In this document: positions 5,025 through 19,849 of the stretch, one piece after another | Layout: each line of letters starts with the position of its first letter | Position numbering within the stretch: the stretch's first letter is position 1 | NCBI GenBank assembly: GCA_937128505.1 | Contig: CAKZMM010000198.1 | Span: 1-39,680 of the forward strand | Direction of reading: 5' to 3' | DNA from: an uncultured Thermogutta sp. | GTDB lineage: Bacteria; Planctomycetota; Planctomycetia; Pirellulales; Thermoguttaceae | DNA length: 39,680 bases | Notes under the pieces: model-generated | Seen by the model: the letters and a program-made list of their open reading frames with translations, nothing else | Databases searched by the model: none | What the model was told of the DNA's origin: nothing | Position numbers and translations under genes: made by a program

Positions 5025-6662
5025 ATGAGCTACGTCGCCACTACGGTAATTTGGCTGGTGATAGCAGCGTGGGCAGGGAACCTGGCCGCTCAAACGGAGG
5101 GGCAGGCTGATCTGGATCGCGCCTTACAAATCAAAATCAAGTCCCGCACCTTAGGTGATTTGGGGGAGGTGATCCGCCTGTGCGAAAGTGCCCTGGCCAA
5201 GGGGCTCGATCTCGACAACGAACAATTCGCCCGGTCGCTCTTGGCTGCCACACGAATTCAACGCGGTCTGCAGTATGCCGAGGAACGCCTTTCCACCGAT
5301 GACCCGGATTGGCCCAAGGTGCGTCGCCTTGCTTTGGAGGACTTGCAAAAGGGGCTGGAGCTTGACCCGAACCATGCTCGCGCCTGGTTCCAGGTGGCTC
5401 GCTTGAATCTGTTGCCGGGTGGAAATCCCCGCGTGGCGCGCCTTGCGCTAGATCGGGCCATCGACACGAGTGTCGAAGAGCCCACCTTGCGAGCCGAGGC
5501 GTACCTGCTTCGTGCAAGTCTTCAGTCCGGTCCCCAGGATAAGCTCAAAGATCTAAATGCTGCTATCGAGGCTAATCCAAAGTTAACGATGGCTTATCGG
5601 CTGCGGGGAGCTTTGTACGCCGATTTGCAGGAGGAGGAAAAGGCCCTTGCCGATCTGGACAAGGCACTCGAGCTGGAGCCGGACCATCCCCTAACACTTC
5701 AGCTCCGTGGGATCATCCTGGCCGAGATGAAGCGGTATGACGAGGCCCTTAAAGTCTTAGAAAAAGTTCACGAGCTGCAACCGCAGGCTTTGGCGCCGCT
5801 ATTAGAACAAGCCAGGATTTTGGGCCTCCAAACCAATTTTCAAGAAGCGCTTGAGCGTCTGGATCAAGCCCTCAAGTTGCAACCGGATAACCCGGCCATT
5901 CTAGTGCTGCGGGCAAGTGTGTTTATCGAGCTGAAGGAACTGGCAAAGGCCCTGACCGATCTCGATCGGGCACTGGAATTACAGCCCGATTTGCCCATTG
6001 CCATGCGGCTCAAGGCCATGGTGCTAATTAGAGAGGGCCGACTCGGCGAAGCGGTGCGGGAACTTCGCCGACTTCGTGGTCGGGGGGTGGACAATCCCCT
6101 CGTCCTTCTGCAACTGGGTCTTTTGGAATTGGCAGCGGGCAGACCCCGGGCAGCGATCGAGCAGTTGAGCCGATTTCTCGAGTCGGAGCCGGAAAACGGT
6201 GTCGCCCTGAGCGCAAGGGCCGATGCCTATTTGAGCATCGGTAAACATGCAGAGGCAATCGCGGATTTTGAAAAGGCCGTGGAATTGGCTCCCGATAATG
6301 CCACTGTTTTGAATAATTTTGCTTGGGTTTTGGCCACCTCGCCGGACGAGCATCTTCGGGACGGAAAACGGGCACTCCCGCTGGCCCAAAAAGCTTGCGA
6401 ATTGACCGAATTCAAGGCCGCCTACGCCGTCAGTACGTTGGCGGCATGTTATGCCGAATTAGGTGATTTTGAGTCGGCGATCCGCTGGGCGGAAAAAGCC
6501 GTGGAATTGGCCACTGGATCCGAAAAAGAACAGCTCCTGCAAGAGCTCGAAAGCTATCGAAACGGCAAACCGTGGCGAGAACGGCAGGAAAAGCCCGAGG
6601 AGGCCGAGGAGGCCGATATTCCCGTCGAATCCCCGCCGGGGCCGGCTGCCCCAACTGAATGA
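5025..6662 (+). CDS. Exported tetratricopeptide repeat (TPR) protein
   Basis: The 545-aa product starts at the ATG preceded by GGGAGGAG about 8 nt upstream. Residues 1-22 form a signal peptide (hydrophobic 6-20, ending NLAAQ), so the protein should be exported. From about residue 100 to 505 it is a chain of some nine to ten TPR units of about 34 residues; the clearest are 189-222, 223-256, 291-324, 394-427 and 464-497, several with consensus ALxxLDxALELxPD. The tail (515-545) is rich in Glu and Pro. There is no enzymatic domain, so it is most likely a protein-interaction scaffold. It follows the TPR/pseudo-CHAT gene on the same strand, which suggests a related function, although the 553-bp gap makes co-transcription uncertain. 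Confidence 0.9.
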   Translation: MSYVATTVIWLVIAAWAGNLAAQTEGQADLDRALQIKIKSRTLGDLGEVIRLCESALAKGLDLDNEQFARSLLAATRIQRGLQYAEERLSTDDPDWPKVRRLALEDLQKGLELDPNHARAWFQVARLNLLPGGNPRVARLALDRAIDTSVEEPTLRAEAYLLRASLQSGPQDKLKDLNAAIEANPKLTMAYRLRGALYADLQEEEKALADLDKALELEPDHPLTLQLRGIILAEMKRYDEALKVLEKVHELQPQALAPLLEQARILGLQTNFQEALERLDQALKLQPDNPAILVLRASVFIELKELAKALTDLDRALELQPDLPIAMRLKAMVLIREGRLGEAVRELRRLRGRGVDNPLVLLQLGLLELAAGRPRAAIEQLSRFLESEPENGVALSARADAYLSIGKHAEAIADFEKAVELAPDNATVLNNFAWVLATSPDEHLRDGKRALPLAQKACELTEFKAAYAVSTLAACYAELGDFESAIRWAEKAVELATGSEKEQLLQELESYRNGKPWRERQEKPEEAEEADIPVESPPGPAAPTE

Positions 6663-6751
6663 TCAAGATCCCTGGCAAGGAGGTTGGTTAGGCCCCGGGT
6701 GAATGGGTAAGTTCTGTCGCGCGATTTCCGGGTAAACAACTTTCCATTGTT

Positions 6752-6812
6752 CTATTTCCCAAAAGATAGACGTTCCCTATTCCCAAAAGATAAACGTTTC
6801 CTAAAAGATTGA
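6752..6812. repeat. Tandem repeat, about 24-bp unit, 2.6 copies
   Basis: CCCAAAAGATA starts at 6758 and 6782, and a shortened third copy (CCTAAAAGATTGACG) follows at about 6800. The units share the pattern CCCAAAAGATA(G/A)ACGTT. It is non-coding and specific to this locus. Confidence 0.75.
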
Positions 6813-6897
6813 CGGCCCCAATTCCCGCGGTTGCTCAAGAGGTCCGCCCTCCTTTTGTTCCGACGATCGCACAGCACAGCCACAACAAATTCACTGC

Positions 6898-6986
6898 ACA
6901 AGGTCCACACGCTCGCTGGTCCAACCGCGTGCGGCTACCGTTTGCTCTCCGCGACGAGACAAGGTCCACACGCTCGCTGGTCCAAC
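6898..6986. repeat. Perfect 28-bp direct repeat pair with 33-bp spacer
   Basis: The copies at 6898-6925 and 6959-6986 are identical over exactly 28 bp (beginning ACAAGGTCCACACG and ending CTGGTCCAAC) and differ on both flanks. The intervening 33 bp are unrelated. The dimensions equal those of another, unrelated repeat pair at 39543-39631. Confidence 0.85.
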
Positions 6987-7150
6987 GGACAAGGAATAGG
7001 ACGAGTGGAATTTCGTGCCATCAGCTCAGAGCAATTCTCGATCCCCGAAGCCGGGGTCCGCCCATTTTCTGAGCATTTCACCTTTTTTTCTGAACATCTC
7101 AGCTTTTTGGGTGTTTCAGCGCGTTTTGGTATTTCGGCAAGACTTGCCGC

Positions 7151-7305
7151 TATTTGATCGGCACTTGTGGTATTTGATCGGCACACAGCAAGCTGCTGAG
7201 AGGAGTGGAGTACCGCCTTTTGCGGATCCCGCCGACGGGAATTGCGTCGCGTGTTAGCGTCGGAAGTCATATTCCGGAAGTTCACAACTTCTGGAAGTTC
7301 ACAAC
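7151..7305. repeat. Cluster of short direct repeats
   Basis: TATTTGATCGGCAC occurs at 7151 and 7171 (20-bp period). CGGAAGT...C units follow at 7261 and 7275, with TTC(C/T)GGAAGTTCACAAC at 7272 and 7289 (17-bp period). Confidence 0.7.
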
Positions 7306-7608
7306 AAAGAACCCAGGTTGAGCGCGCAAGCTTTTCTCAAAATCTTCAGTCTACTTAGCCTGTCCATTCCCGCTTTTCTGACCATACTTCGCTTTTAACG
7401 CATATTATCGAAAAAACGGGATTTTAGCTTACCTTTAGTTGACTTTGCCTTTCTTGTTCAACTGTTTCGGGCAGCTTTTCCGATACTATCGTCACGGACG
7501 GATAGTTTCGGAACCCAGGGGGTCAGGGGGCGGCGGAGAGTCGGGTGCCCGGATCATACCCCCAGGGAACAAGTCCCACGCAAGCTAGAGCGAGGACGCA
7601 GGTCAATC

Positions 7609-9203: not shown

Positions 9204-9614
9204 CTACGGAGCCTCCTTAGGCACCTGCCGAACCGAGTCGGCTTTATCCGCCATTTCCAGGGCTTTGTGAATGGCAAAGGCAAGCTCCACCGGGTCGCAG
9301 GGCTTGGTGAACAGTCGCTCGACTCCGGCGTCGTTAATGGCCGATATCGCCGCTTGGACCGTGGGAGCGCCGGTGATAAGAAACCGCTTGACGTGCGGTA
9401 AGTGCTTTGCGACCCAAGTGAGGAGCTCCGTGCCGTTCATCCCGGGCATCCAATGGTCGGCAAGGACCAAGTCAATTGGTCGGCTTTTCAAAATGAGCAT
9501 GGCCTCGTCCGCCGACCGTGCAGTGTACAGATGATACGGCTGGTGACGCAAGGCTCGAGCCAGCCCCCGAAGAAGGTTCTCATCATCATCCACAAGCAGC
9601 ACTCGTTGCGGCAT
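9204..9614 (-). CDS. Single-domain response regulator (receiver)
   Basis: The 136-aa product is a stand-alone receiver (REC) domain. It starts at the ATG at 9614, which is preceded by a GAGGAGG Shine-Dalgarno, rather than at the longer open frame. The acidic pair Asp9/Asp10 (LLVDDDE), phosphoacceptor Asp53 (LVLADHWMPGMNG), a Thr in FLITG and Lys in FTKPC are all in place, so it should be phosphorylatable. There is no output domain, so it presumably acts by protein-protein contact or as a phosphate relay. Its start lies inside the 3' end of the upstream kinase gene (29-nt overlap), which indicates translational coupling and makes that kinase the likely partner. Confidence 0.92.
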   Translation of the reverse strand: MPQRVLLVDDDENLLRGLARALRHQPYHLYTARSADEAMLILKSRPIDLVLADHWMPGMNGTELLTWVAKHLPHVKRFLITGAPTVQAAISAINDAGVERLFTKPCDPVELAFAIHKALEMADKADSVRQVPKEAP

Positions 9615-12600
9615 CGTACGACGGCTCCTCCTCAGGACGGTGGTGGACCGCCAGTTTTTGCGGCAAGAAAATCCGGAATGTACTCCCTTGCCCCACCCGA
9701 CTTTCGCAGCGGATGAAGCCCCCATGACTGCGAACGATCGAATCCGCCAAAGTCAATCCCTTCCCCACGTGTTTGAGTCCCTTAGTGGTGAAGAAAGGAT
9801 CGAAGATTTTGGATTGGATTTCCAGGGGGATTCCCGGGCCATTGTCCGCCACCACGATTTCTACGCCATTTTCCACCGAGCGGGTCTCAATCCGGATGAT
9901 GCCTTTCTGGCCCTCCCCCTCGCTTGGCCCTTCGGCGACTGCTTCGGCAGCATTAAAAATAATCTCGAAAAGGGCTTGATTGATTTCGCAGCCACTGGCA
10001 CAAATTTTGGGGAGGTCGTCCTCGAACTCCGTCACCAGTGTTGCCACCGGTTCCCATCGGGAGCGGCACAAGGTCAGTGTCGCCTCAATAAGCCGATTCA
10101 GATCAACCCATTCGCAGCCACCGGATCGCGATTCGGCAAACTGCCTCATGGCCTGAACAATCCCGGCGATTCGGGCCACCCCTTGCTCGGTCTCGATCAA
10201 GGCGCGAGGAATTTCCGATCTTAGATATTCCCACTCGCTTTTTTCTAAAGCCGTGCTCGCTTCCGCGGCAAGCTTCTGGAACGCGGTAAGATCCGCGTCG
10301 CCCACGCCAAGATTTACCATCTCCTCGAGGCGTTCGAGCAGGGCGCTCAACTCGTCGATATTGTTTCGCAAGAAGTTAAGATTGTCGTTAACAAACTGGA
10401 TAGGAGTATTCAGTTCATGGGCGACACCGCCGGCCAAACGTCCCAAACCTTCCAGGCGTTGAGCCCGCGCACATTCCTCTTCGAGCTGTTTGATGCGAGT
10501 GATGTCGGCAATCACCGCCGCCACAAACCAACAACCTTTTTCGTCCGCAAACGGAGAAGCCGTAATTTGAACGACCCGGTTTTGTTCTTTTGGCAGCACT
10601 TCCTCGGCAATAGCCGTTTTGCCCGAGTGTAAGGCCTCGCTGAAAACACATCGCCCCTGGGGCGGATCATTGCCCCAAAAATATTGGCAGCAGCTGCGTC
10701 CTGCGTAGGGGCCGTAAATTTTTTCCGATCGCGGATCCACGTACAGAAGCTGACCCTTGTGGTCGGCGATTACAAGGCCGGTGCTTGTGGCCCCGAGAAT
10801 GAACTCGAGTTGCTGTTTGAGCTTTCGGATCTCGGCTTCCGCTTGTTTATACTTTATCAGACTTCCCAGGCGATCAGCCACACTATCTAGAAGTTGCTGT
10901 TCCTCGCGGATGAACGATTTTAAGGTACTTTCGTTCACCGGCGGTTCGCTCACATAGCACACCTCAAGGGCTCCAATGAGGTGATTGCCCAGCATCACGG
11001 GGGATGCCATTTTCCAAACGGTCTCCTGGTAATTCCGCTCGGCTACAACTGAGCCATAAAGCAGTAACCTTGCTCCGACTAATTCGGGAAACCGGCAGGC
11101 TCCCGCGACTACTTCGAGAATTTTCGGGGCGATCTCGTTCGGTGAGTTCCAGGCACTGCTGACCAATTGCCCCACCTCGTAGAGCGCCCCAAGCTCCCGA
11201 ACTCGATACGAGAGCACCTGAGTTTGCTTGGCCAACTGCCTTTCCAGTGTTTTCCGCTTGATCAAATTGGCCAGAAGATCGGCGACTGTGAGCACCCAGT
11301 TTTTAACGCTTTCCACTTCGGTTTGCGGCAACTCGCAGGCCAGGCACAAAACTCCCCAAGGCTTGCCGGCTCCGTCCATCAAGGGGATGGAAAACTGCCA
11401 AATGTCGCCGACGCCTTGTGTCAGCCTTTGCCCCAGGAGCTGCAAGTACGGAGTGTTGAGCCCGGTGCTGATAATGGGACGCCTTTCTTGGGCAGCCCGT
11501 CCGCAATTGCACTCGCCAAGCAAAATTTCCATGCATCCCCCGCCATCGTCCGCCCGGTTGACAAAGGTCTCCAGTCGCAGGCGGTTTCCGTCCTCCCCAT
11601 CAGTCAAGAATATCGAAACCATCGCTCCGGGAGGGAGGAGACCACTTTGAACCAGCGCGTTAATGACCCGCTTGAGCTGCTCTGGAAGCGGTCCCTCTTC
11701 GAGCGAAAGACCGAGCAAATGATTGATCAGCTTTTGCTCCCGCAGATGCCGTTCACGCTCTTGCTCGCCGAGCCGGCGTTCCGTTGTATCCCGCGCAATC
11801 CCCAGGATACCCACCGGTTGACCCATCTCATCCAAAAGGAAGGAGGCGCGGATTTGGAACCACCGACTTTCCCCCGATTTGGTACGGTGCTCAAGCTCGA
11901 ACGATTCGACGGGGCGGTCCCCGGCCAAAACGCGCGGCAGAGTTTCTTTCAGTTTTGCCCAGGCGAGGGCCGTCGATTCCGGCGAAAGGATCATTTCCGC
12001 CGATTGCCCCAACAATTCCTCCGGCCGATAACCCAAAAGCGCTTCGACTGCAGAGTTGACATAGGTGAATCGTAGCTCGAGGTCCAGGCTCCAAATGATG
12101 TCTTTCACCGATTCGGTGATAATCCGATAACGTTCTTCACTTTCGCGCAAGGCCCTTTCCGCTTTCTTGCGTTCGGCAAGATCACGAATGACCGCTACCG
12201 CATGCCATTGTCCACACTGTTCGAAGGAAGCGAGGGAAAGCTCGATCGGAATCCGCCGGCCATCCTTGTGGAGGGCTTCGAGTTCCAAGGTACGTCCTAC
12301 GGCGGCACCACGGCCGGTTTGACAAAAATATTCGAAGCCTTTTTCGAACGCAGGAAGCAATTCAGGAGGACACAACAATTCGTGAGCATCGCGGCCAATT
12401 GCCTCCGCCGGGGTATAGCCGAAGATTCGTTCGGCAGCAGGGTTCCAAAAAACTATCGTACCGCCTCCGTCGATCATGATGATCGCATCCTGGGCGGCAG
12501 TAGCCATTTTTCGCAAGCATTCTTCGCTTTCGCGAAGCCGGATTTCCGTCTCGCGCATTTCGGTAATGTCTTGGGCGAAGCTAATAGCCCCGATTACTTG

Positions 12601-13353
12601 TCCGTTTTCATCTCGAAGTGCTCGGCACTGCCATGCAAGCAGGCGGGCCTTACCATCGCAGCGCTGCTGAAGGCTCTCCCCATAAACGGTAGAAGTATCC
12701 CCTTCGAAAAGCGTCTGCACGATGTCGTAAGTTCGTTGCCGCCCGACGAAATACTCCGCGGCCTCGCGGCCAATGCAATCTGGGCCAAAGAAGCGTTTGC
12801 CGCCATCATTTGCCCAGGTGTACACACGATTATTATCCACTTCCATCACGATGCCGGGCAGAGCCTCCAAAAGCGACCGGTGTCGGGCCTGAACTTGCTT
12901 TAGCTCCTTTTGAACCTGCTCGCGAAGCTCGCGCTCATCCGCTAAATGTCTTTTCAGATCCTCTAATTGCGTAGCAACTTGGGAACGCTCGACTTCACTG
13001 TCCTTCAATCGCGACGTTGTTTCCTGGTAAAACTTCTCGAAATCTTGGAGTTTCGCGCTTTGTTCCTCGAGCTTTTGATGAGTTTGGACCCGATATCGCC
13101 AAAGCGCCGAACCGAGAATTCCCCCCAAAATAAAGCTAAAGCCTAAGCTCATTATTCCTGCAATAACCCCCCTCAGAGCCCACCAGAAGTGGAGTGAAAG
13201 AAGTATCACCGCGACCACCGGCGGGCCTAATGCCGCGGCTAGGATGAGAAGCTGGCCCAATTCAACCCTCCGTTCGGGCTTTTGCCGACCGGCAAGTTCG
13301 CCTTCGGCCTCGGGAGGTTTGTGCGGGATTAATGGGCGGATGACCTTCAACAT
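9586..13353 (-). CDS. Membrane-anchored multi-PAS/GAF sensor histidine kinase
   Basis: The product is a 1255-aa kinase. Residues 33-86 form two transmembrane helices, followed by a coiled coil (90-160). PAS-like domains are at about 160-265, 277-395 and 405-525; GAF-like domains at about 555-700 and 718-830; a fourth PAS at about 848-952. The transmitter begins at about 965: H-box GGVAHELNTPIQF with His979, N-box around 1124-1139, G1 DNGPGIP 1170-1176, F-box DPFFTTKG 1185-1192 and G2 GKGLTLAD 1197-1204. Two cysteine groups may sense redox or a cofactor: GECNCG (613-618) in the first GAF, and Cys888/889 plus Cys902 in the last PAS. Because the membrane part has almost no periplasmic loop, it probably senses cytoplasmic or membrane signals. 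The ATG has no obvious Shine-Dalgarno. It overlaps the downstream receiver gene by 29 nt. Confidence 0.92.
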   Translation of the reverse strand: MLKVIRPLIPHKPPEAEGELAGRQKPERRVELGQLLILAAALGPPVVAVILLSLHFWWALRGVIAGIMSLGFSFILGGILGSALWRYRVQTHQKLEEQSAKLQDFEKFYQETTSRLKDSEVERSQVATQLEDLKRHLADERELREQVQKELKQVQARHRSLLEALPGIVMEVDNNRVYTWANDGGKRFFGPDCIGREAAEYFVGRQRTYDIVQTLFEGDTSTVYGESLQQRCDGKARLLAWQCRALRDENGQVIGAISFAQDITEMRETEIRLRESEECLRKMATAAQDAIIMIDGGGTIVFWNPAAERIFGYTPAEAIGRDAHELLCPPELLPAFEKGFEYFCQTGRGAAVGRTLELEALHKDGRRIPIELSLASFEQCGQWHAVAVIRDLAERKKAERALRESEERYRIITESVKDIIWSLDLELRFTYVNSAVEALLGYRPEELLGQSAEMILSPESTALAWAKLKETLPRVLAGDRPVESFELEHRTKSGESRWFQIRASFLLDEMGQPVGILGIARDTTERRLGEQERERHLREQKLINHLLGLSLEEGPLPEQLKRVINALVQSGLLPPGAMVSIFLTDGEDGNRLRLETFVNRADDGGGCMEILLGECNCGRAAQERRPIISTGLNTPYLQLLGQRLTQGVGDIWQFSIPLMDGAGKPWGVLCLACELPQTEVESVKNWVLTVADLLANLIKRKTLERQLAKQTQVLSYRVRELGALYEVGQLVSSAWNSPNEIAPKILEVVAGACRFPELVGARLLLYGSVVAERNYQETVWKMASPVMLGNHLIGALEVCYVSEPPVNESTLKSFIREEQQLLDSVADRLGSLIKYKQAEAEIRKLKQQLEFILGATSTGLVIADHKGQLLYVDPRSEKIYGPYAGRSCCQYFWGNDPPQGRCVFSEALHSGKTAIAEEVLPKEQNRVVQITASPFADEKGCWFVAAVIADITRIKQLEEECARAQRLEGLGRLAGGVAHELNTPIQFVNDNLNFLRNNIDELSALLERLEEMVNLGVGDADLTAFQKLAAEASTALEKSEWEYLRSEIPRALIETEQGVARIAGIVQAMRQFAESRSGGCEWVDLNRLIEATLTLCRSRWEPVATLVTEFEDDLPKICASGCEINQALFEIIFNAAEAVAEGPSEGEGQKGIIRIETRSVENGVEIVVADNGPGIPLEIQSKIFDPFFTTKGLKHVGKGLTLADSIVRSHGGFIRCESRVGQGSTFRIFLPQKLAVHHRPEEEPSYDAATSAACG

Positions 13354-13843
13354 GACTGTGAACAGCGTTTCACAACAAAAGTCAAAACAAAAGACCCTCG
13401 TACCGTAACATCGCTTATCCCATCAACCGGGAATAACAACCGGAAAATTGGTTTACCGTTGAGCAGGTCCACTTATTCATTGGCCCCTTGGCATCATAGG
13501 TCCTTGGCACACTATGTCCGATCGCGGCCGAAATCTACCAACACCAGCTTTTTCGGAGGTTGCCGGAGCGGCTGCATTCTCTCGCGGCCACATCGGTCGA
13601 TGGCCGAAACCCAAACCTACGCGATGCATGAAATTTCCCAACTGCCCGGCGCAATTCGCACGCTCAATTCCCGAAAATTTTCGATTGAATAATTCACTTC
13701 CCGCTTGAAGGTGTATTTCTCCAATGGCGGCCATGCAAATTTGTGCACGCCGAGGAAGCATCACATGGTGAATTCATACTCCAAAGTTGAGGCAACTTCT
13801 GAGCCTGGACCCTTTTTGAAAACCATCTTCAAAATGAGTGAAT
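13354..13843. other. Intergenic region within the signalling cluster
   Basis: This 490-bp gap separates the receiver/HD-GYP gene from the large kinase gene. No gene was recognised. CCTTGGCA is duplicated at 13486 and 13502. On the minus strand TTGACT (complement of about 13381-13386) could be a -35 box for the kinase, but the matching -10 is poor. The gap suggests that the last two genes of the cluster may have their own promoter. Confidence 0.5.
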
Positions 13844-15040
13844 TCAATACTGAGTGCCTCGAGTCGTGGCGACAACGTTCGGCTCCTCGCACCCCTCATC
13901 GGAGGCCCTAACGAAGACTTTGATGGGGGTTTGAACCCCCACATTAACTAAGTACGAAGCCAAGCGTGCCCGCATCGCCGGGGTAACTTCCTGCCCTTTA
14001 GCGCAAAGGAGAGTCCCGTGGATCGATCGCACATCTTCGGCAAGAATCGCCCCATCCACCAAACCCGCCACTCCCACCCGACGAATGACGAACACCTCTT
14101 GGATGGCCAGCAGGTGGCGTAAGGCGTCCAGAACAGCCGGATCATACCAGCCGACACGGTCGGTCATTTCCGCAAGCGCAATGTCCTCCGAGCGATTGGC
14201 TGAAAGCAGCGCATCGAAGTCGGCAGCCACTTTAAGGATCCGGCTCCCCAGCGGTAGATCCCCACCCAGCGGAGGCCCCGGCGGCACACCCCCGCCGTCA
14301 AAATGCTTGTCTTGGTACCGGATGATCCTTGCGACCTCCTCCATCCGGGGAATCCGCCGCAACAAGTCGTAAGCTACGCCGGAGGTTGAATGAATCGCCT
14401 CGCGCTCGGCTCGGCTTAATTCCTCTCCTCGCAGCGATTTCAACAAGGTGCTTTCCGGTACGGCAACATAGCCGATTTGTGAGAGCATAGCAGCCAGCTC
14501 AATCTGCCAAGCATTCTGTACCTGGAGTTGCGCGGCCAACTCCCGAGCCAAGCGCTGGATGCGCCCGGCGCGGCCAAAGGCCGTGGGATTTACCAGCCCC
14601 AAGACATCGGCAATAACCTTCAGGCTGCCGCTGAGGGTTTTTGACAACAGCTCCTTTTCGGCCGTGATGAGCCGGTACTGTTCGATTCCAGCTTGCAGAT
14701 TCTTCGCCAGCACCTCCGGCGGACAGGGCTTTGTGAGGAAGCGGAAGATGTGCCCCTCGTTGATCGCATCCATCGCGGTTTTTTGATCCGCGTTGCCGGT
14801 CAGAATCATGCGAACCGTTTGCGGAGCCATCGCTTTGACGTGCTTAAGAAGCTCAATACCGTTCATGCCGGGCATCCGCATGTCGGCGACTACTACCGCA
14901 AATGGACCACCTTCTTTGATGGCCTCTAAAGCCTCTTCCCCCCCAAGTGCCGTTTCCAAGTCGAACTGCTTGCGGAGATTTCGGCGGTATCCCTCCAGCA
15001 CGTTTAGTTCGTCGTCAACCAAAAGAATTCGTTCCGACAT
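13844..15040 (-). CDS. Response regulator with degenerate HD-GYP output domain
   Basis: The product is 398 aa, with a GAGG site 7 nt before the ATG. Residues 1-122 are a receiver with an intact site: Asp9/Asp10, Asp53 (VADMRMPGMNG), Thr81 and Lys104 (TKPC). Residues about 140-310 align with the HD-GYP fold, but the catalytic motifs are altered: the usual HDIGK reads SQIGY (187-191), and the usual HHE before DGxGYP reads Gln243-Asp244-Lys245 before DGGGVP. Cyclic-di-GMP hydrolysis is therefore unlikely, and the domain probably works as a phosphorylation-dependent binding module. The last 80 residues form a separate small domain (about 315-378). It is third from the end of the signalling cluster, 355 bp below the receiver-HDOD gene. 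Confidence 0.9.
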   Translation of the reverse strand: MSERILLVDDELNVLEGYRRNLRKQFDLETALGGEEALEAIKEGGPFAVVVADMRMPGMNGIELLKHVKAMAPQTVRMILTGNADQKTAMDAINEGHIFRFLTKPCPPEVLAKNLQAGIEQYRLITAEKELLSKTLSGSLKVIADVLGLVNPTAFGRAGRIQRLARELAAQLQVQNAWQIELAAMLSQIGYVAVPESTLLKSLRGEELSRAEREAIHSTSGVAYDLLRRIPRMEEVARIIRYQDKHFDGGGVPPGPPLGGDLPLGSRILKVAADFDALLSANRSEDIALAEMTDRVGWYDPAVLDALRHLLAIQEVFVIRRVGVAGLVDGAILAEDVRSIHGTLLCAKGQEVTPAMRARLASYLVNVGVQTPIKVFVRASDEGCEEPNVVATTRGTQY

Positions 15041-15395
15041 GGTTTAACCTCAAATACCGAGAATCTCAGAACGCCACCGCTCGGCCAAGATCGTTCGGCG
15101 ACATCCCATCAGCCCGTTACTCGGCGACATCCCATTCTCCCATTACCCCGAAGCCCAGTGCGAAGACGGTTTTGCGACCCTTGGCCACACTCATACTCCC
15201 TTAGGCAGGCGGTCGTTGGTTTACTCCTGATGCTATCGATGCAGCAAGAAACACGCTCCCTCACGCACGGTGGTTCAGGGTCCCGCCACGACGATCGGCA
15301 CACAATGGGTCCCGCACGCTTCGCTATGTCGGGAATTGCTACCGAAAGGCCCATTTGCGTATCAGACGGACCGCTTCACACCCGCCGGGTCAGAT
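15041..15395. other. Intergenic region within the signalling cluster
   Basis: This 355-bp spacer between two co-directional response-regulator genes contains no recognisable gene. It includes a 26-bp tandem duplication at 15095-15146. A promoter for the receiver/HD-GYP gene could lie here, but none was identified. Confidence 0.5.
15095..15146. repeat. Tandem duplication, 26-bp unit
   Basis: TCGGCGACATCCCAT occurs at 15095 and 15121. The full 26-bp units differ at about four positions in their right halves. Confidence 0.7.
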
Positions 15396-16595
15396 TCAAT
15401 TAAATCGATCACCCCTCTCACCGGATGAACTTGTGCTCATGCACTGGGCTAAATAATCAAATATCGAACTGCACCGCCGACTGCCGCGCTGAAGAAACTC
15501 ATGGAGCTCTTTTGCATGGGAGGAGCTCGCTTGCCACAAAACCGATGGTGACACCTCGGCATGGGCAACGATCGCATCTACAACCGCTTCGGGAATTCCC
15601 CAGAGCGCAAGCAGATACGCCCCCGCCGTGGGGTGATCCGCGCCGAATGCTTCCACTTCCAGAGCAAGCAGCGTTTGCCGAGGTCTCGCCTCCCGTAGAG
15701 CCGCCTCCAAGATTTGGCCGTAAACCTCCGGGTCATACATCGCCAAAACAATGATGCCCACACCCCGGAACATTCCGGCGCAGTAAGCGTGAGCCAACAC
15801 AGAGTCGGGCAGCCCCGCTTCGCGAGCTGCGCTTTCCACCTCCCGTGCAAGCTGCGCCGAATACAAGTTGATCTGTCTCAAAAGAGCTAAAAGCAGGGGC
15901 GATTCGGCCACCTTCCCTTGGTTTTCCGCATCAACCCCAAGCCTGCGGACCTCTTTCAGCCCAAGTGCCGCAATGGCTTCCGCCGGCGTTATTGCCCGAA
16001 GAGGCCGTCCGAAAAAGCCCGTGCTCGCCAGTTGCATCACTTTGGTGGCAAACCCGACGTCTTGCTGGGCGATTTTGGCCAAAGTCGCGGCAACTTCCTC
16101 CGCGCTTAGCCGAGCTTCTTCCCCTGAGGGGGTAATGAATTCGGCATGCTCAGGCAAAACAGGCAGTGCCCGCAAGGTGTGGATAAACTCGCGGAATCGC
16201 CCCCCGGGCAGTCGCTGACGAATCGCCCCCACCCAGGCCAGTGCCGTCCTCAGTACCTCGGCTTCGCACGGTTTGCTGAGGAATTGATGGGCAAATTCGG
16301 CACCGCGACCGATGGCCCCCGGCTCACACTGGCCGGAAAGCAACAATCGCACCGACCCCGGTATACGCGCCCGAACCTCGGCCAAAAGCTGGGCTCCGTC
16401 CATCACCGGCATCCGCATATCACTGACCACTACATCCGGCGGATTGGTTTCGCGAGCCTTTTCCAGTAACTCCAAAGCTTCCAAGGGGCCGAGGGCGAAA
16501 TCGGCTTGCCATTGATGGCGGAATGGGCGGAGAATCCGCCGAAGACCGTCAAGCACATATCGCTCGTCGTCGACGAACAAAATGCGCAAGTTCAT
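15396..16595 (-). CDS. Response regulator with HDOD output domain
   Basis: The protein is about 399 aa, starting at ATG 16595 (MNLRILFVDDE); a GTG two codons earlier (16601) is also possible. The receiver spans residues 1-120, with the acidic pair in VDDE, the phosphoacceptor Asp in VVSDMRMPVMDG (Asp61 counted from the GTG), Ser in LLLSG and Lys in FLSKPC. Residues about 140-335 form an HDOD domain: LRALPVLPEH, the QDVGFATKVMQLASTGFFG block and AEAIAALGLKEVRRL are characteristic. HDOD domains resemble HD hydrolases without the metal site and are regarded as signalling adaptors. The gene begins only about 20 nt after the stop of the upstream kinase gene, so the two are almost certainly co-transcribed and likely form a cognate pair. 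Confidence 0.92.
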   Translation of the reverse strand: MNLRILFVDDERYVLDGLRRILRPFRHQWQADFALGPLEALELLEKARETNPPDVVVSDMRMPVMDGAQLLAEVRARIPGSVRLLLSGQCEPGAIGRGAEFAHQFLSKPCEAEVLRTALAWVGAIRQRLPGGRFREFIHTLRALPVLPEHAEFITPSGEEARLSAEEVAATLAKIAQQDVGFATKVMQLASTGFFGRPLRAITPAEAIAALGLKEVRRLGVDAENQGKVAESPLLLALLRQINLYSAQLAREVESAAREAGLPDSVLAHAYCAGMFRGVGIIVLAMYDPEVYGQILEAALREARPRQTLLALEVEAFGADHPTAGAYLLALWGIPEAVVDAIVAHAEVSPSVLWQASSSHAKELHEFLQRGSRRCSSIFDYLAQCMSTSSSGERGDRFN

Positions 16596-16620
16596 CGCCA
16601 CACCGTCCCTTTCCGCCAGA

Positions 16621-18963
16621 TTATCGAGTCCCTACGCTTGGGGCCTTACCCAATGGCTCGATAGGCAGACGAACAATAAAGGTCGTATTCACCCCCTCTT
16701 GCGTCTGGAAGTCGATGGTGCCCCCGTGCCGATCCACCACAATGGATCGAACGATGGCCAACCCTTGGCCCGTGCCCCGTCCTACCTCTTTGGTGGTGAA
16801 GAACGGCTCGAAAATCCGGGACTGAATTTTTTCCGGAATTCCCATCCCCGTGTCTTGAATGCGGATCTCCACCATCGGCCCATCGCGTCGGGTGCTGACG
16901 GTAATCGTCCCTTTCTGCCCCGGGTTCTTCTTGACCTTATCGCCAATTGCATGGGCCGCATTGACCACAAGGTTAAGAATCATTTGATTGATGTCATCCG
17001 GAAAGCAAACCACCAGGGGCAGATTCGGTTCGAAATCGGTCACCACCTCCGCCACATATTTCCATTCGTTTCGCGACACGGTAAGGGTGCTTTCAATGCC
17101 CCGATTCAGATCGAAAGGTTGTTTCTGCCCGGCATGCGGATGCGAAAACTCCTTCATCGATCGAACGATTTTCGTAACTCGTTCCACTCCTTCCAAAGCT
17201 TGCTGGATAGCCTGGGGGATTTCCTCAAGCAGGTAATCGAGGTCAGTGGCCTGAACTACCCGCTTCAGATTTCCGAGTTCGTCGAGGATCTTGGTCGAAT
17301 CAAATGCCTCAAGATCGCTTTTTTCCGCCGAGCCCTTCGGTCCATCCTGAGGGAAGATCTCAACCAGTTGAGCCGTTTCTTTAAGCAAGTCTTGGAGTTC
17401 TTCGAATCCTTCCCGCAAAAAGCGGAGATTGTCGCCGATGTACTGCGTGGGGGTATTGATCTCGTGAGCAATCCCCACGGCCAACTGGCCAATCGATTCG
17501 AGCTTTTGGGCTTGACGTAGGTGTGCCTCTAGTCGCAGTTTTTCCCCGACATCGCGGAAGGTGACCACCGCACCGGTGCAGCGGCCACGATCCACCATCA
17601 AAGAGACCGTGTAATCCGCCGGGAATGCACTTCCATCGCGCCGCCAAAAAGTTTGATGGCCACAGATGAGCTTTTGATCGCCGAAAAGCCCCGCGCACAT
17701 CGCACAAGCATCCCGCGGCAACGGGTCGCCTTTTTCTGAGGTATGATGCACGGTTTCATGCCAAAACCGACCGACAAGCTCGGCCACTGGCCATCCCAAC
17801 ATCTTTGCAGCAGCCGGGTTGGCGAAGACGATTCGCCTGCTGGTGTCGAGCCCCACGATTCCTTCACCAGCGGCATCCAGGATCATCTGGTTTTGCAGAT
17901 GCAATCGACGAAGCGTCTCCTCGGACTGCTTTCGCTGGGTAATGTCGCGGAAAATGCCGGTGTAAACCCAGCGATCCCCCAACCAAACGCGGCTAACGCC
18001 AAGCTCGATTGGGATGGAGACGCCATCTTTTCGGCGACCGATAACCTCACGCAGCCCCCCTTCCAAGGATTTCAACACCGTGTGAGTTGCTTCCGGCCCA
18101 GCGGTGGGGGCAAGAAGCTCCGGGAAAATCAACGAGATTCTTTTCCCAAGTACCTCCTCGGGCTTATAGCCGAAAATTCGCCTTGCTTGCTCGTTGAACG
18201 ATTCCAGAAAGCCCTGTTCGTTGGCGATGAAAATCCCGTCGGCCGCCAGCATCATCACCCGCTGGAGTTGCTCGATGTGGGTCTCTTGCTCGCGAAGGCG
18301 CTTGTCCCGCTCTTCAATCGCCTCGTTGATGGCTGCCGCTTGCGAAGCACGGAGCACCTGGTGCTCGTTCTTCATGTGGCGAAGACGAGTTTGCAGGAGC
18401 GAGGTTTGCGTGTGGCAACCCCAAAGAGCGCGGAGGAGCAACCCGACGAACTTCCACATCGCCGGACTGTCGCCCCCGGTTTCTTCCCCAATCGGAAGCC
18501 CGGTTTCCTGCGATCCAGACTCGTCAGCAAAGATCGCACGCCTAACGACGGAGCCTTCTGCCACGGATTGGCCGAGCTTTTCGCACCCTCCTGACGAACC
18601 ACCAAATGCGGGTGCTTTCGTTAAGAGTCCGAAATAGATCGCCCCCTCGGCCTGAGGGAATCGGCCCACCAGAGCCTTCCAACCGGGATTGTTCGGCACT
18701 TGCGGAATATAACGGAACTTCCGGCTCTCAGAAGCGGAAGCGATCGAAGAAACTAAGCTCGGCACGACGGCCCGAAGCTTGGGGTCCGGTGCCCCGCAGC
18801 CCAAAGATTCGAGAACCAGACACTCGCCCCGCTGATTTGCAAAAAACCATGCCCCGAGATCCTCGCCGACAAGCTCGGGCGGGACTGCAACCGCCCCTCC
18901 GTCCCGCACTTGCGCTCCGAAGGCGAGATACAGTTCCTCAAAACTACTTGCCGTATGCCCCAT
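16621..18963 (-). CDS. Cytoplasmic PAS-domain sensor histidine kinase
   Basis: The product is 780 aa; an AGGAG site 7 nt upstream fixes the start. Residues 1-180 match no family I can name (possibly a diverged GAF-like sensor). A coiled coil follows (190-235), then PAS domains at about 235-345 and 355-475; the second contains three cysteines (420, 423, 434). The transmitter has the H-box VGIAHEINTPTQYIGDN with His500, an N-box around 656-672 (NLVVNAAHAI), G1 DTGMGIP, F-box FEPFFTTKE and G2 GTGQGLAI (730-737). No transmembrane helix is evident, so it should be cytosolic. It is flanked within 10 nt upstream by the HDOD gene, whose stop codon overlaps this gene's ribosome-binding site, and within about 20 nt downstream by the receiver-HDOD gene. 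Confidence 0.93.
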   Translation of the reverse strand: MGHTASSFEELYLAFGAQVRDGGAVAVPPELVGEDLGAWFFANQRGECLVLESLGCGAPDPKLRAVVPSLVSSIASASESRKFRYIPQVPNNPGWKALVGRFPQAEGAIYFGLLTKAPAFGGSSGGCEKLGQSVAEGSVVRRAIFADESGSQETGLPIGEETGGDSPAMWKFVGLLLRALWGCHTQTSLLQTRLRHMKNEHQVLRASQAAAINEAIEERDKRLREQETHIEQLQRVMMLAADGIFIANEQGFLESFNEQARRIFGYKPEEVLGKRISLIFPELLAPTAGPEATHTVLKSLEGGLREVIGRRKDGVSIPIELGVSRVWLGDRWVYTGIFRDITQRKQSEETLRRLHLQNQMILDAAGEGIVGLDTSRRIVFANPAAAKMLGWPVAELVGRFWHETVHHTSEKGDPLPRDACAMCAGLFGDQKLICGHQTFWRRDGSAFPADYTVSLMVDRGRCTGAVVTFRDVGEKLRLEAHLRQAQKLESIGQLAVGIAHEINTPTQYIGDNLRFLREGFEELQDLLKETAQLVEIFPQDGPKGSAEKSDLEAFDSTKILDELGNLKRVVQATDLDYLLEEIPQAIQQALEGVERVTKIVRSMKEFSHPHAGQKQPFDLNRGIESTLTVSRNEWKYVAEVVTDFEPNLPLVVCFPDDINQMILNLVVNAAHAIGDKVKKNPGQKGTITVSTRRDGPMVEIRIQDTGMGIPEKIQSRIFEPFFTTKEVGRGTGQGLAIVRSIVVDRHGGTIDFQTQEGVNTTFIVRLPIEPLGKAPSVGTR

Positions 18964-18973
18964 CGGTTAGCTC

Positions 18974-19849
18974 CTAGATCTGGAACAGCAAGGCATGTTC
19001 GGCAAGCGCTTGGTCGAGATCCTCAGCCAAAACCAGGATGTCCTCCCTGGTTAGGGCCAGTGCCAAAATGGCCTCTTGAAAGGAATCAGCCAGCTTTACC
19101 CCGACGGCCGTGTAACCTTTCAGGGTGCAGATCGCATTAGCCGCTTGCACGCAGTGAAGCGTCGTCAAATCCTGTCCCTTGTAGCCGCTGGGGTTATGGT
19201 GATAGCGGATAGCGGTTCGGACAGACTCGGGAAACCGCCATTTTTCGGCGATCCGTCCGCCGAGGATGGTGTGGTCAAATCCCAAAATCTGACGTTCGTT
19301 TTCGGGAAAGGTCCCGCCGGATTCCATGGCCGCCAGCACCCGACGGAAGTGCCCATGCACGTGCTGGTCTTCAAGGATGATGCCAATATCGTGGAGCAAA
19401 CCGGCTAGAAAGACATCCTCGAATTGATCAATCCTCCGCCGCATGGCCAGGAGCCGTGCGCAAAGCCCCACAGCCACGCAGTGCCGCCAGAGGCCCTTTC
19501 GCGAGTAATTGCCGATCGCGTCCGCCCCCCGAAAAAGCTCACTTACGCTGGCTGTGATCGCCAAATTACGGATTTGCTTCAGCCCCAAGTAAGCGATGGC
19601 TTGCTGAAGGTTGGTGATCCGCTCCCGGGCCCCATAGGCCGATGAATTCACGCAGCGCAGGACGCGGGCACTCAGAGCCGCATCCGTCTCCATGACTTCC
19701 TTCAAGTCAGCGGCCCCGGAACGTGGGTCATTGGCCACTTCCATGACGTTCAACGCCACCTGAGGCAAGGTGGAGATCTCGTCAATTCGTGCCAAGACCC
19801 GATCTAAAGTCGGGGGAGCCTCAGCGGCCAAAAAGCCGGCGTTACCCAT
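18974..19849 (-). CDS. HDOD domain protein
   Basis: The product is 291 aa if started at the ATG at 19849, which has an ideal AAGGAGG 5 nt upstream; the open frame extends further but without support. Almost the whole protein is an HDOD domain: RIDEISTLPQVALNVMEVAN at the start, then METDAALSARVLRCVNSSAYG, AIAYLGLKQIRNLAI and a retained LLHDIGIIL. The last phrase shows an HD-like His-Asp pair, unlike the receiver-HDOD protein downstream. HDOD proteins are linked to signal-dependent regulation and usually lack proven enzyme activity. It is the first gene of the signalling cluster; its TAG stop is part of the next gene's TAGGAG ribosome-binding site, a sign of translational coupling. Confidence 0.92.
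   Translation of the reverse strand: MGNAGFLAAEAPPTLDRVLARIDEISTLPQVALNVMEVANDPRSGAADLKEVMETDAALSARVLRCVNSSAYGARERITNLQQAIAYLGLKQIRNLAITASVSELFRGADAIGNYSRKGLWRHCVAVGLCARLLAMRRRIDQFEDVFLAGLLHDIGIILEDQHVHGHFRRVLAAMESGGTFPENERQILGFDHTILGGRIAEKWRFPESVRTAIRYHHNPSGYKGQDLTTLHCVQAANAICTLKGYTAVGVKLADSFQEAILALALTREDILVLAEDLDQALAEHALLFQI

Follow-up and report, generated by a model that had tools for sequence, protein, structure and literature searches.

Response regulators with a degenerate HD-GYP domain are already known from multi-regulator systems (Hno, NosPKR and VC1087); both they and HDOD regulators are common, and to our knowledge few have an established mechanism. The present analysis concerns a cluster of six two-component genes, designated A to F, in a 39,680-nucleotide (nt) stretch of DNA from an uncultured Thermogutta sp. 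(contig CAKZMM010000198.1, here C198, of an assembly of 5.58 Mb in 198 contigs; "the window" denotes this whole stretch). On the minus strand the cluster encodes, in this order, an HDOD protein (A), a PAS kinase (B), a receiver (REC)-HDOD regulator (C), a REC-degenerate HD-GYP regulator (D), a transmembrane/PAS/GAF kinase (E) and a single REC domain (F). With its core of kinase B followed by C and D, found together in many phyla, the cluster gives the impression of a genuine switch that has been widely retained; to judge by the alignments, the ligand positions of the HD-GYP site in D are replaced by a conserved set of residues and not randomised.

Comparison with described systems

The published systems are compared here as described in the accessible parts of the cited papers. 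In the HnoK/HnoS-HnoB/HnoC/HnoD set of Shewanella, the inactive HnoD inhibits the phosphodiesterase HnoB (PMC6335343, PMC8846402); the set resembles the window cluster in its two kinases, its several receivers and its one degenerate HD-GYP protein, which in Shewanella acts by contact (PMC6335343). In contrast, the Hno set includes an EAL phosphodiesterase regulator and a DNA-binding regulator, whereas the window has HDOD proteins instead and no intact enzyme of cyclic di-GMP (c-di-GMP) metabolism; among the Pfam matches of the cluster there was no phosphodiesterase regulator, and a REC-HD-GYP gene was present in 7 of 15 loci of relatives (see below). The Burkholderia NosP-NosK-NosR system, like the window, combines an HExxN kinase with a REC-degenerate HD-GYP regulator, in one operon; NosK (motif HEINN) phosphorylates the degenerate HD-GYP protein NosR (PMC12570481). 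The motif reported for NosR is HG-GTP, that of the D family SQ with Q (74 of 95 homologues), and the term HDOD has no occurrence in the main text of that paper. A further counterpart is the predicted eight-gene operon VC1080-VC1087 of Vibrio cholerae, in which VC1087, a REC-HD-GYP protein without the HD motif, is inactive in vivo and in vitro and shares the predicted operon with a REC-EAL protein (PMC4212101, PMC4441509). Its partner is the EAL protein VC1086, unlike in the window, and HDOD does not occur in the accessible text of PMC4212101. Protein C is matched, by description, by Desulfovibrio DVU0330, which has the same REC-HDOD architecture and retains the HD residues, as do 61/74 C homologues; DVU0330 has weak phosphodiesterase activity on bis-p-nitrophenyl phosphate (bis-pNPP) and none on c-di-GMP, and another HDOD regulator, GsmR, controls motility genes (PMC4114195). 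A unit of kinase, REC-HDOD and REC-pseudo-HD-GYP genes was not found described in the accessible open-licence PubMed Central literature, to which the search was confined, subscription papers being outside its scope.

Positions and domains (Pfam) of the six genes agreed with the first-pass annotation of this DNA, which had listed them as consecutive on one strand:

A: 18974..19849, minus strand, stand-alone HDOD protein, 291 amino acids (aa), H-HD-H-HH ligand-type residues retained
B: 16621..18963, minus strand, histidine kinase with two PAS domains, 780 aa
C: 15396..16601, minus strand, REC-HDOD response regulator, 401 aa, GTG start
C-D intergenic gap: 15041..15395, minus strand, 355 nt
D: 13844..15040, minus strand, REC-degenerate HD-GYP response regulator, 398 aa
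D-E intergenic gap: 13354..13843, minus strand, 490 nt
E: 9586..13353, minus strand, large histidine kinase, 1255 aa, several PAS domains and a GAF domain
F: 9204..9614, minus strand, single-domain REC protein, 136 aa

Rewritten HD-GYP site of protein D

The description of D (Pfam REC plus HD_5, the latter with 133 bits) as a degenerate HD-GYP protein was borne out: it carries R157, S187/Q188, Y191, T219 and Q243/D244 at the positions where all eight canonical relatives checked carry H, HD, K, H and HH. Among 95 D homologues (a count that includes both L033 and L055, whose D is identical), the HD dyad was found in none and SQ with Q in 74; the first His was replaced by Arg in 72, the HD dyad by Ser in 83 and Gln in 78, the Lys by Cys in 75, the first His of HH by Gln in 93, and the Glu by Lys in 68. 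The DGxG motif was mostly retained (D 62, G 72, G 74), and T135, W178, P231 and R232 were invariant, whereas the Arg-bearing loop of canonical HD-GYP domains was missing in all 95 sequences. Since the family lacks H, HD, K and HH and has a conserved replacement instead, phosphodiesterase activity is not expected. The window protein departs from its family at two positions, Tyr191 for Cys and Thr219 for the mid-domain His (present in 69/95), otherwise retains the family signature and shares 63-65% identity with its nearest relative. The D alignment was made from 67 of 96 sequences (window included). Conservation at eight pocket positions of our own choosing averaged 0.75 versus 0.55 for the domain (p 0.015), position 244 not being conserved; as the effect is only moderate, it was rejected as proof of function.

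The AlphaFold model of D (mean predicted local distance difference test score, pLDDT, 94.1) showed the HD-GYP fold in residues 122-314, with matches to DvhD (Z 21.3, root mean square deviation 4.7, 188 aligned residues) and Bd1817 (Z 20.8, 2.2, 160 aligned). Outside the matched fold, a small, conserved extension follows at the C-terminus (residues 317-378), modelled with strands, which may resemble a motif of other HD-GYP proteins. The closest solved structure to the D receiver was 3kcn from Rhodopirellula baltica (48% identity), deposited as "adenylate cyclase homolog".

Among named families, D matched NosR best (NCBIfam NF053512, 233.4 bits, E 4.9e-69, below the curated cut-off of 400), and the pseudo-HD part alone reached 105 bits; no NCBIfam model exceeded its cut-off for D among the best 25 of 73 matches. 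At the place of the HD dyad (187-188 in the window protein), the D homologue of L092 (Limisphaerales) shows HG, as NosR is reported to do, a hint that NosR could be a member of the D family.

Conservation of the B-C-D core

Thirteen D sequences were compared with the GTDB species genomes, and the best 80 of 559 confirmed relatives were evaluated, so that the rates given here hold for the nearest relatives of D. In 63/80 loci, the gene called immediately upstream of D, in the same orientation, was a C gene, at distances of -310 to 68 nt; 62 of these HDOD genes encode REC-HDOD proteins and that of L106 is cut. The next upstream gene encoded a kinase in 50/80 loci, and a REC gene directly followed D in 14/80. 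According to the submitters' record titles, mostly those of metagenome bins, the 62 C-D loci fall into 14 named phyla (plus four loci without phylum) and the 80 D genes into 16 (plus five). Of the other loci, seven have less than 900 nt upstream of D and ten are without a called C directly upstream: C lies one gene further in L108, L113 and L128, the upstream place is taken by the REC-HD-GYP gene X (see below) in L052 and by a kinase in L081, L086, L112 and L118, and L071 and L099 have a strong HDOD match within 1.5 kb of D. Open reading frames (ORFs) were called mechanically as longest frames, which missed two genes of L036 (X and C) and one of L054 (A); because the calling hid genes, 63/80 is low if anything. 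An HDOD match of at least 60 bits lay within 1.5 kb of D in 73/82 loci versus 2 of 16 control loci around other REC hits, namely L017 and L018, each from a contig with module genes (L047, L049); full flanks were not demanded of controls. At the looser E 1e-4 the ratio was 75/82 versus 4/16, with L035 and L052 counted only through a 38-bit match at X, not C.

A quickly built tree placed the 96 D sequences on one side of a fully supported branch and eight X sequences on the other, long branches meeting there. The phyla clustered in the D tree yet interleaved (28 changes versus a minimum of 15 and 51.8 in shuffles), which makes a degree of transfer or paralogy likely. Over 74 loci, the distances of C correlated with those of D (Mantel r 0.23-0.41, p 0.001 each).

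The synteny is conserved, and the cluster is not a chance arrangement: two relatives have the six-gene order as well, and B-C-D recurs across phyla, contrary to the scattered homologues that had been named as a refutation of the module. The six genes did not hold up as one unit, as first proposed; the widely conserved part is B-C-D.

Close relatives and the additional gene X

Planctomycetes contain the nearest D homologues; among the larger clades with strong support, the smallest (14 rows) comprises Pirellulales, Pirellulaceae and Thermoguttaceae records. Strong D matches (E <1e-60) occurred in 14 of 60 genomes searched as relatives, two of them with two copies, and at 1e-60 in 35 of 392 genomes of a phylum draw, the own genome being included in both counts; two same-genus genomes had no such match (best E about 4e-12). 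The order A-B-C-D-E-F was shared by L032, L054 and the window, and both gene A and the full order were seen in close relatives only.

In 7 of 15 loci of relatives, but not in the window, B was directly followed by X, a gene for a REC plus canonical HD-GYP protein, situated between B and C in L031, L034, L036, L037 and L043 and in place of C in L035 and L052. The count covers loci in which a single contig carries B upstream of D (L031-L037, L039-L043, L052, L054 and L056, plus the window); L055 (a copy of L033), L044 (no upstream kinase), L038, L046-L051 and L053 (B or D absent or truncated) were dropped, as was L045 (B, weak D, no X), the inclusion of which would give 7/16. The active-site residues H, HD, K, H and HH were kept in all eight X copies checked, a set in which L046, L047 and L049 are from contigs without D and the X of L036 is not included. 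Hence the lack of such an enzyme is a trait of the window and of some genomes, not of the whole module. Of the first-pass proposal of a signalling module without transcriptional output, the kinases standing beside receivers without DNA-binding domains were found as described, whereas "no output" does not apply to the relatives with an intact REC-HD-GYP gene in the same run. A trade-off in which X is present when C is degenerate was rejected, since in L031 X occurs beside an intact C and in L056 a degenerate C occurs without X. In L034 (G026:C1:1941500-1961000), kinase B is split across two overlapping frames (5137-7379), and an E-F-like pair lies upstream of A on the opposite strand (699-2781). 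Gene maps were rechecked for 26 loci and the window, the other 74 named loci being left out.

HDOD proteins, kinases and receivers

The HDOD domains had been taken as metal-less, which by their residues fits the window C and is not borne out for A and most C homologues. Protein A (Pfam HDOD 192.4 bits, cut-off 22.9; NCBIfam HDIG passed with 35.4 bits, cut-off 27.6) retains all six ligand-type residues, as do its 7/7 complete homologues, an eighth being cut. Protein C (Pfam REC 54.9 bits, HDOD 84.8 bits; AlphaFold mean pLDDT 90.2) has the signature Y,R,G,H,H,A, in which four of the six His/Asp ligand-type residues are gone, whereas they are complete in 61/74 C homologues; a seventh ligand position is Asn in 48/74 and Asp in only 13/74.

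Kinase B (Pfam PAS and HATPase_c, the latter with 87 bits) has the H-box HEINTP at residue 500 and intact ATPase boxes (G1 DTGMGIP, G2 GRGTGQGL). Kinase E (Pfam PAS and GAF) has the H-box HELNTP and an N-terminal hydrophobic stretch taken by eye as transmembrane. The Pfam HisKA cut-off (26.9 bits) was not reached (B 15.7 bits, E not listed); H-box and HATPase_c are present in both. Both H-boxes fit the H-E/D-x-x-T/N phosphatase motif, which suggests that B and E are likely bifunctional kinases; the motif is discussed for NosK in the accessible text of PMC12570481. In place of the GxGxGL pattern found at the G2 box of the ATP lid in 111/137 kinase ORFs of related loci, E has HVGKGL and may be a weak kinase. 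The receivers of C, D and F (F: Pfam REC 73.8 bits, scored on a longer 173-aa frame) possess the acidic pair, phospho-Asp, Thr/Ser, Lys and the KPC motif intact, as first described; the two acidic residues, phospho-Asp, Lys and Pro are invariant in 95/95 D and 74/74 C, and the KPC Cys is a family trait (95/95 D, 71/74 C).

Proposed mechanism and alternative explanations

The cluster may be a local version of an old, widespread phosphosignalling module with kinase B, C and D as its core. Kinase B, probably bifunctional by its HExxT/N motif, would set the phosphorylation state of C and D, and phosphorylation would alter the docking of their HD-superfamily output domains on partner proteins. By analogy with HnoD or NosR, D would be a catalytically dead HD-GYP protein that controls c-di-GMP enzymes by contact, its natural partner in relatives being the X protein from the same gene run. 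As X can replace C, both possibly work at the same step. Kinase E and F would add a second input and, given the single-domain form of F, a shuttle or phosphate-sink receiver. A multi-regulator phospho-switch of this kind, modelled on HnoD/NosR and presumed to target c-di-GMP enzymes through protein contact, is in our view about as likely as not.

In the window genome the candidate enzymes lie elsewhere. It contains four GGDEF matches, eight HDOD matches (three weak, two being A and C) and, besides D, two HD_5 proteins: a GAF-HD-GYP-like protein on C187, in which HD and HHEAWNGRGYP are present (GAF named by eye), and an HD-GGDEF protein with a partly altered site on C124; a 574-aa frame on C171 has a REC match followed by a GGDEF domain. 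A search with X revealed no full-length REC-HD-GYP protein besides D in this genome. Possible targets of an HnoD-type regulator thus exist in trans only; with X missing, C and D would act on, for example, the C187 protein or the C171 frame.

Several points weigh against this phospho-switch. The phosphotransfer pairs, the protein contact and the c-di-GMP target are what we infer by analogy, and HnoD, NosR and VC1087 were likened to D by their published descriptions, not by sequence alignment; the NosR model also matches the canonical X (188 bits) and its match to D is therefore not specific. A NosP system proper was rejected: the window cluster contains no FIST gene, the sole FIST match of the genome lying on another contig (G000:C95:18365-18862); of 22 searched genomes, each with D loci, 9 contained FIST. 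Within the window, D is set 355 nt apart from C, and C is poorly conserved (29-38% identity to the other 51 rows of the C alignment, for which 52 of 75 sequences were used). Finally, a canonical HD-GYP gene was detected within 8 kb in only 9/80 loci of the broad scan, a minimum since many contigs stop short of that distance, so that a local c-di-GMP enzyme is no more than a putative part of the core in most phyla.

The other 71 loci are, with the same limit, consistent with a phosphosignalling branch unrelated to c-di-GMP, in which C and D would be scaffolds for, e.g., cell cycle, motility or sigma-factor control. The absence of the Arg-bearing loop from all D homologues points in the same direction, as does, in the accessible text of PMC4114195, the regulation of motility genes by the HDOD protein GsmR; however, the fixed slot of X directly after B (7/15) speaks for a link to c-di-GMP, and we regard a branch without it as rather unlikely.

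Alternatively, C and D could form an enzyme-pseudoenzyme pair, with C as an HDOD metal-dependent phosphohydrolase or nucleotide binder, D as its regulatory partner and X as a possible replacement of C. This would fit the six ligand-type residues in 61/74 C, X in the place of C in L035 and L052, the adjacency of C and D in 63/80 loci with their correlated distances, and the weak activity of DVU0330 on bis-pNPP (PMC4114195, accessible text). According to the same text DVU0330 has no c-di-GMP activity, however, the seventh ligand position is mostly Asn, and the Mantel correlation possibly reflects the common descent of the hosts; moreover, having lost four of six ligand-type residues, the window C probably does not work in this way. 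We hold this pair for unlikely. A decaying cluster, the module being perhaps on its way out in this genome, would agree with the absence of X or a similar REC-HD-GYP protein, the C signature YRGHHA, the two gaps, the E box HVGKGL and the two same-genus genomes without a strong D match, yet is very improbable in view of six open, full-length frames, intact receivers and H-boxes, and a D protein that keeps its family signature at 63-65% identity to the nearest relative.

Tentatively, D may be viewed as a refashioned and not a dead HD-GYP protein (mostly R..SQ..C..Q.K, in 16 named phyla; Tyr for Cys in the window), usually paired with an HDOD regulator that mostly keeps its ligand residues; together they would make up a complex under phosphorylation control, either of pseudoenzyme and enzyme or as a two-ligand receptor, in which a canonical HD-GYP protein can replace the HDOD protein. 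If true, such a complex would be a signalling principle that the accessible literature was found to describe for neither the HDOD nor the degenerate HD-GYP family. The three-gene unit names candidate partners of HDOD and degenerate HD-GYP proteins across many phyla and offers a rewritten site for mutation; X in the same slot of relatives is a concrete link to c-di-GMP, and the question of HDOD function gains a defined kinase and a defined neighbour.

Cluster layout and intergenic gaps

The junctions claimed at both ends of the cluster were confirmed (A-B 10 nt, B-C 19 nt, E-F overlap of 29 nt), whereas the gaps of 355 nt (C-D) and 490 nt (D-E) divide the set into A-B-C, D and E-F; tight coupling is limited to A-B-C and E-F, and the gaps speak against one six-gene operon. 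With respect to the 63 other loci (-310 to 68 nt), the C-D gap is an outlier. It was ruled out as a repeated element, being single-copy in the genome; its sole repeat is a 26-nt tandem direct repeat (two copies, 85%, 15095-15146), and the D-E gap contains no repeats. A tblastn search with module-related proteins (E 0.01) revealed no remnant of a lost gene, e.g. for a REC-HD-GYP protein, in either gap: 110 of 113 rows fell on the B-C piece, which includes the ends of B and C, and three weak ones (E 0.001-0.005) upstream of A. No DNA-binding domain was detected in the six proteins among Pfam matches to E 0.1, except for a sub-cut-off match of B to an Rv0623-like transcription factor model (16.9 bits, cut-off 28.3). 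Within the window there was no Rfam match at gathering thresholds and no tRNA; promoter-like matches over the whole stretch numbered 3 versus 4.2 expected (standard deviation 2.0) and terminator-like matches 23 versus 15.4 (4.2). The ATG start codons of A and F are preceded by AAAGGAGG and GAGGAGG, respectively.

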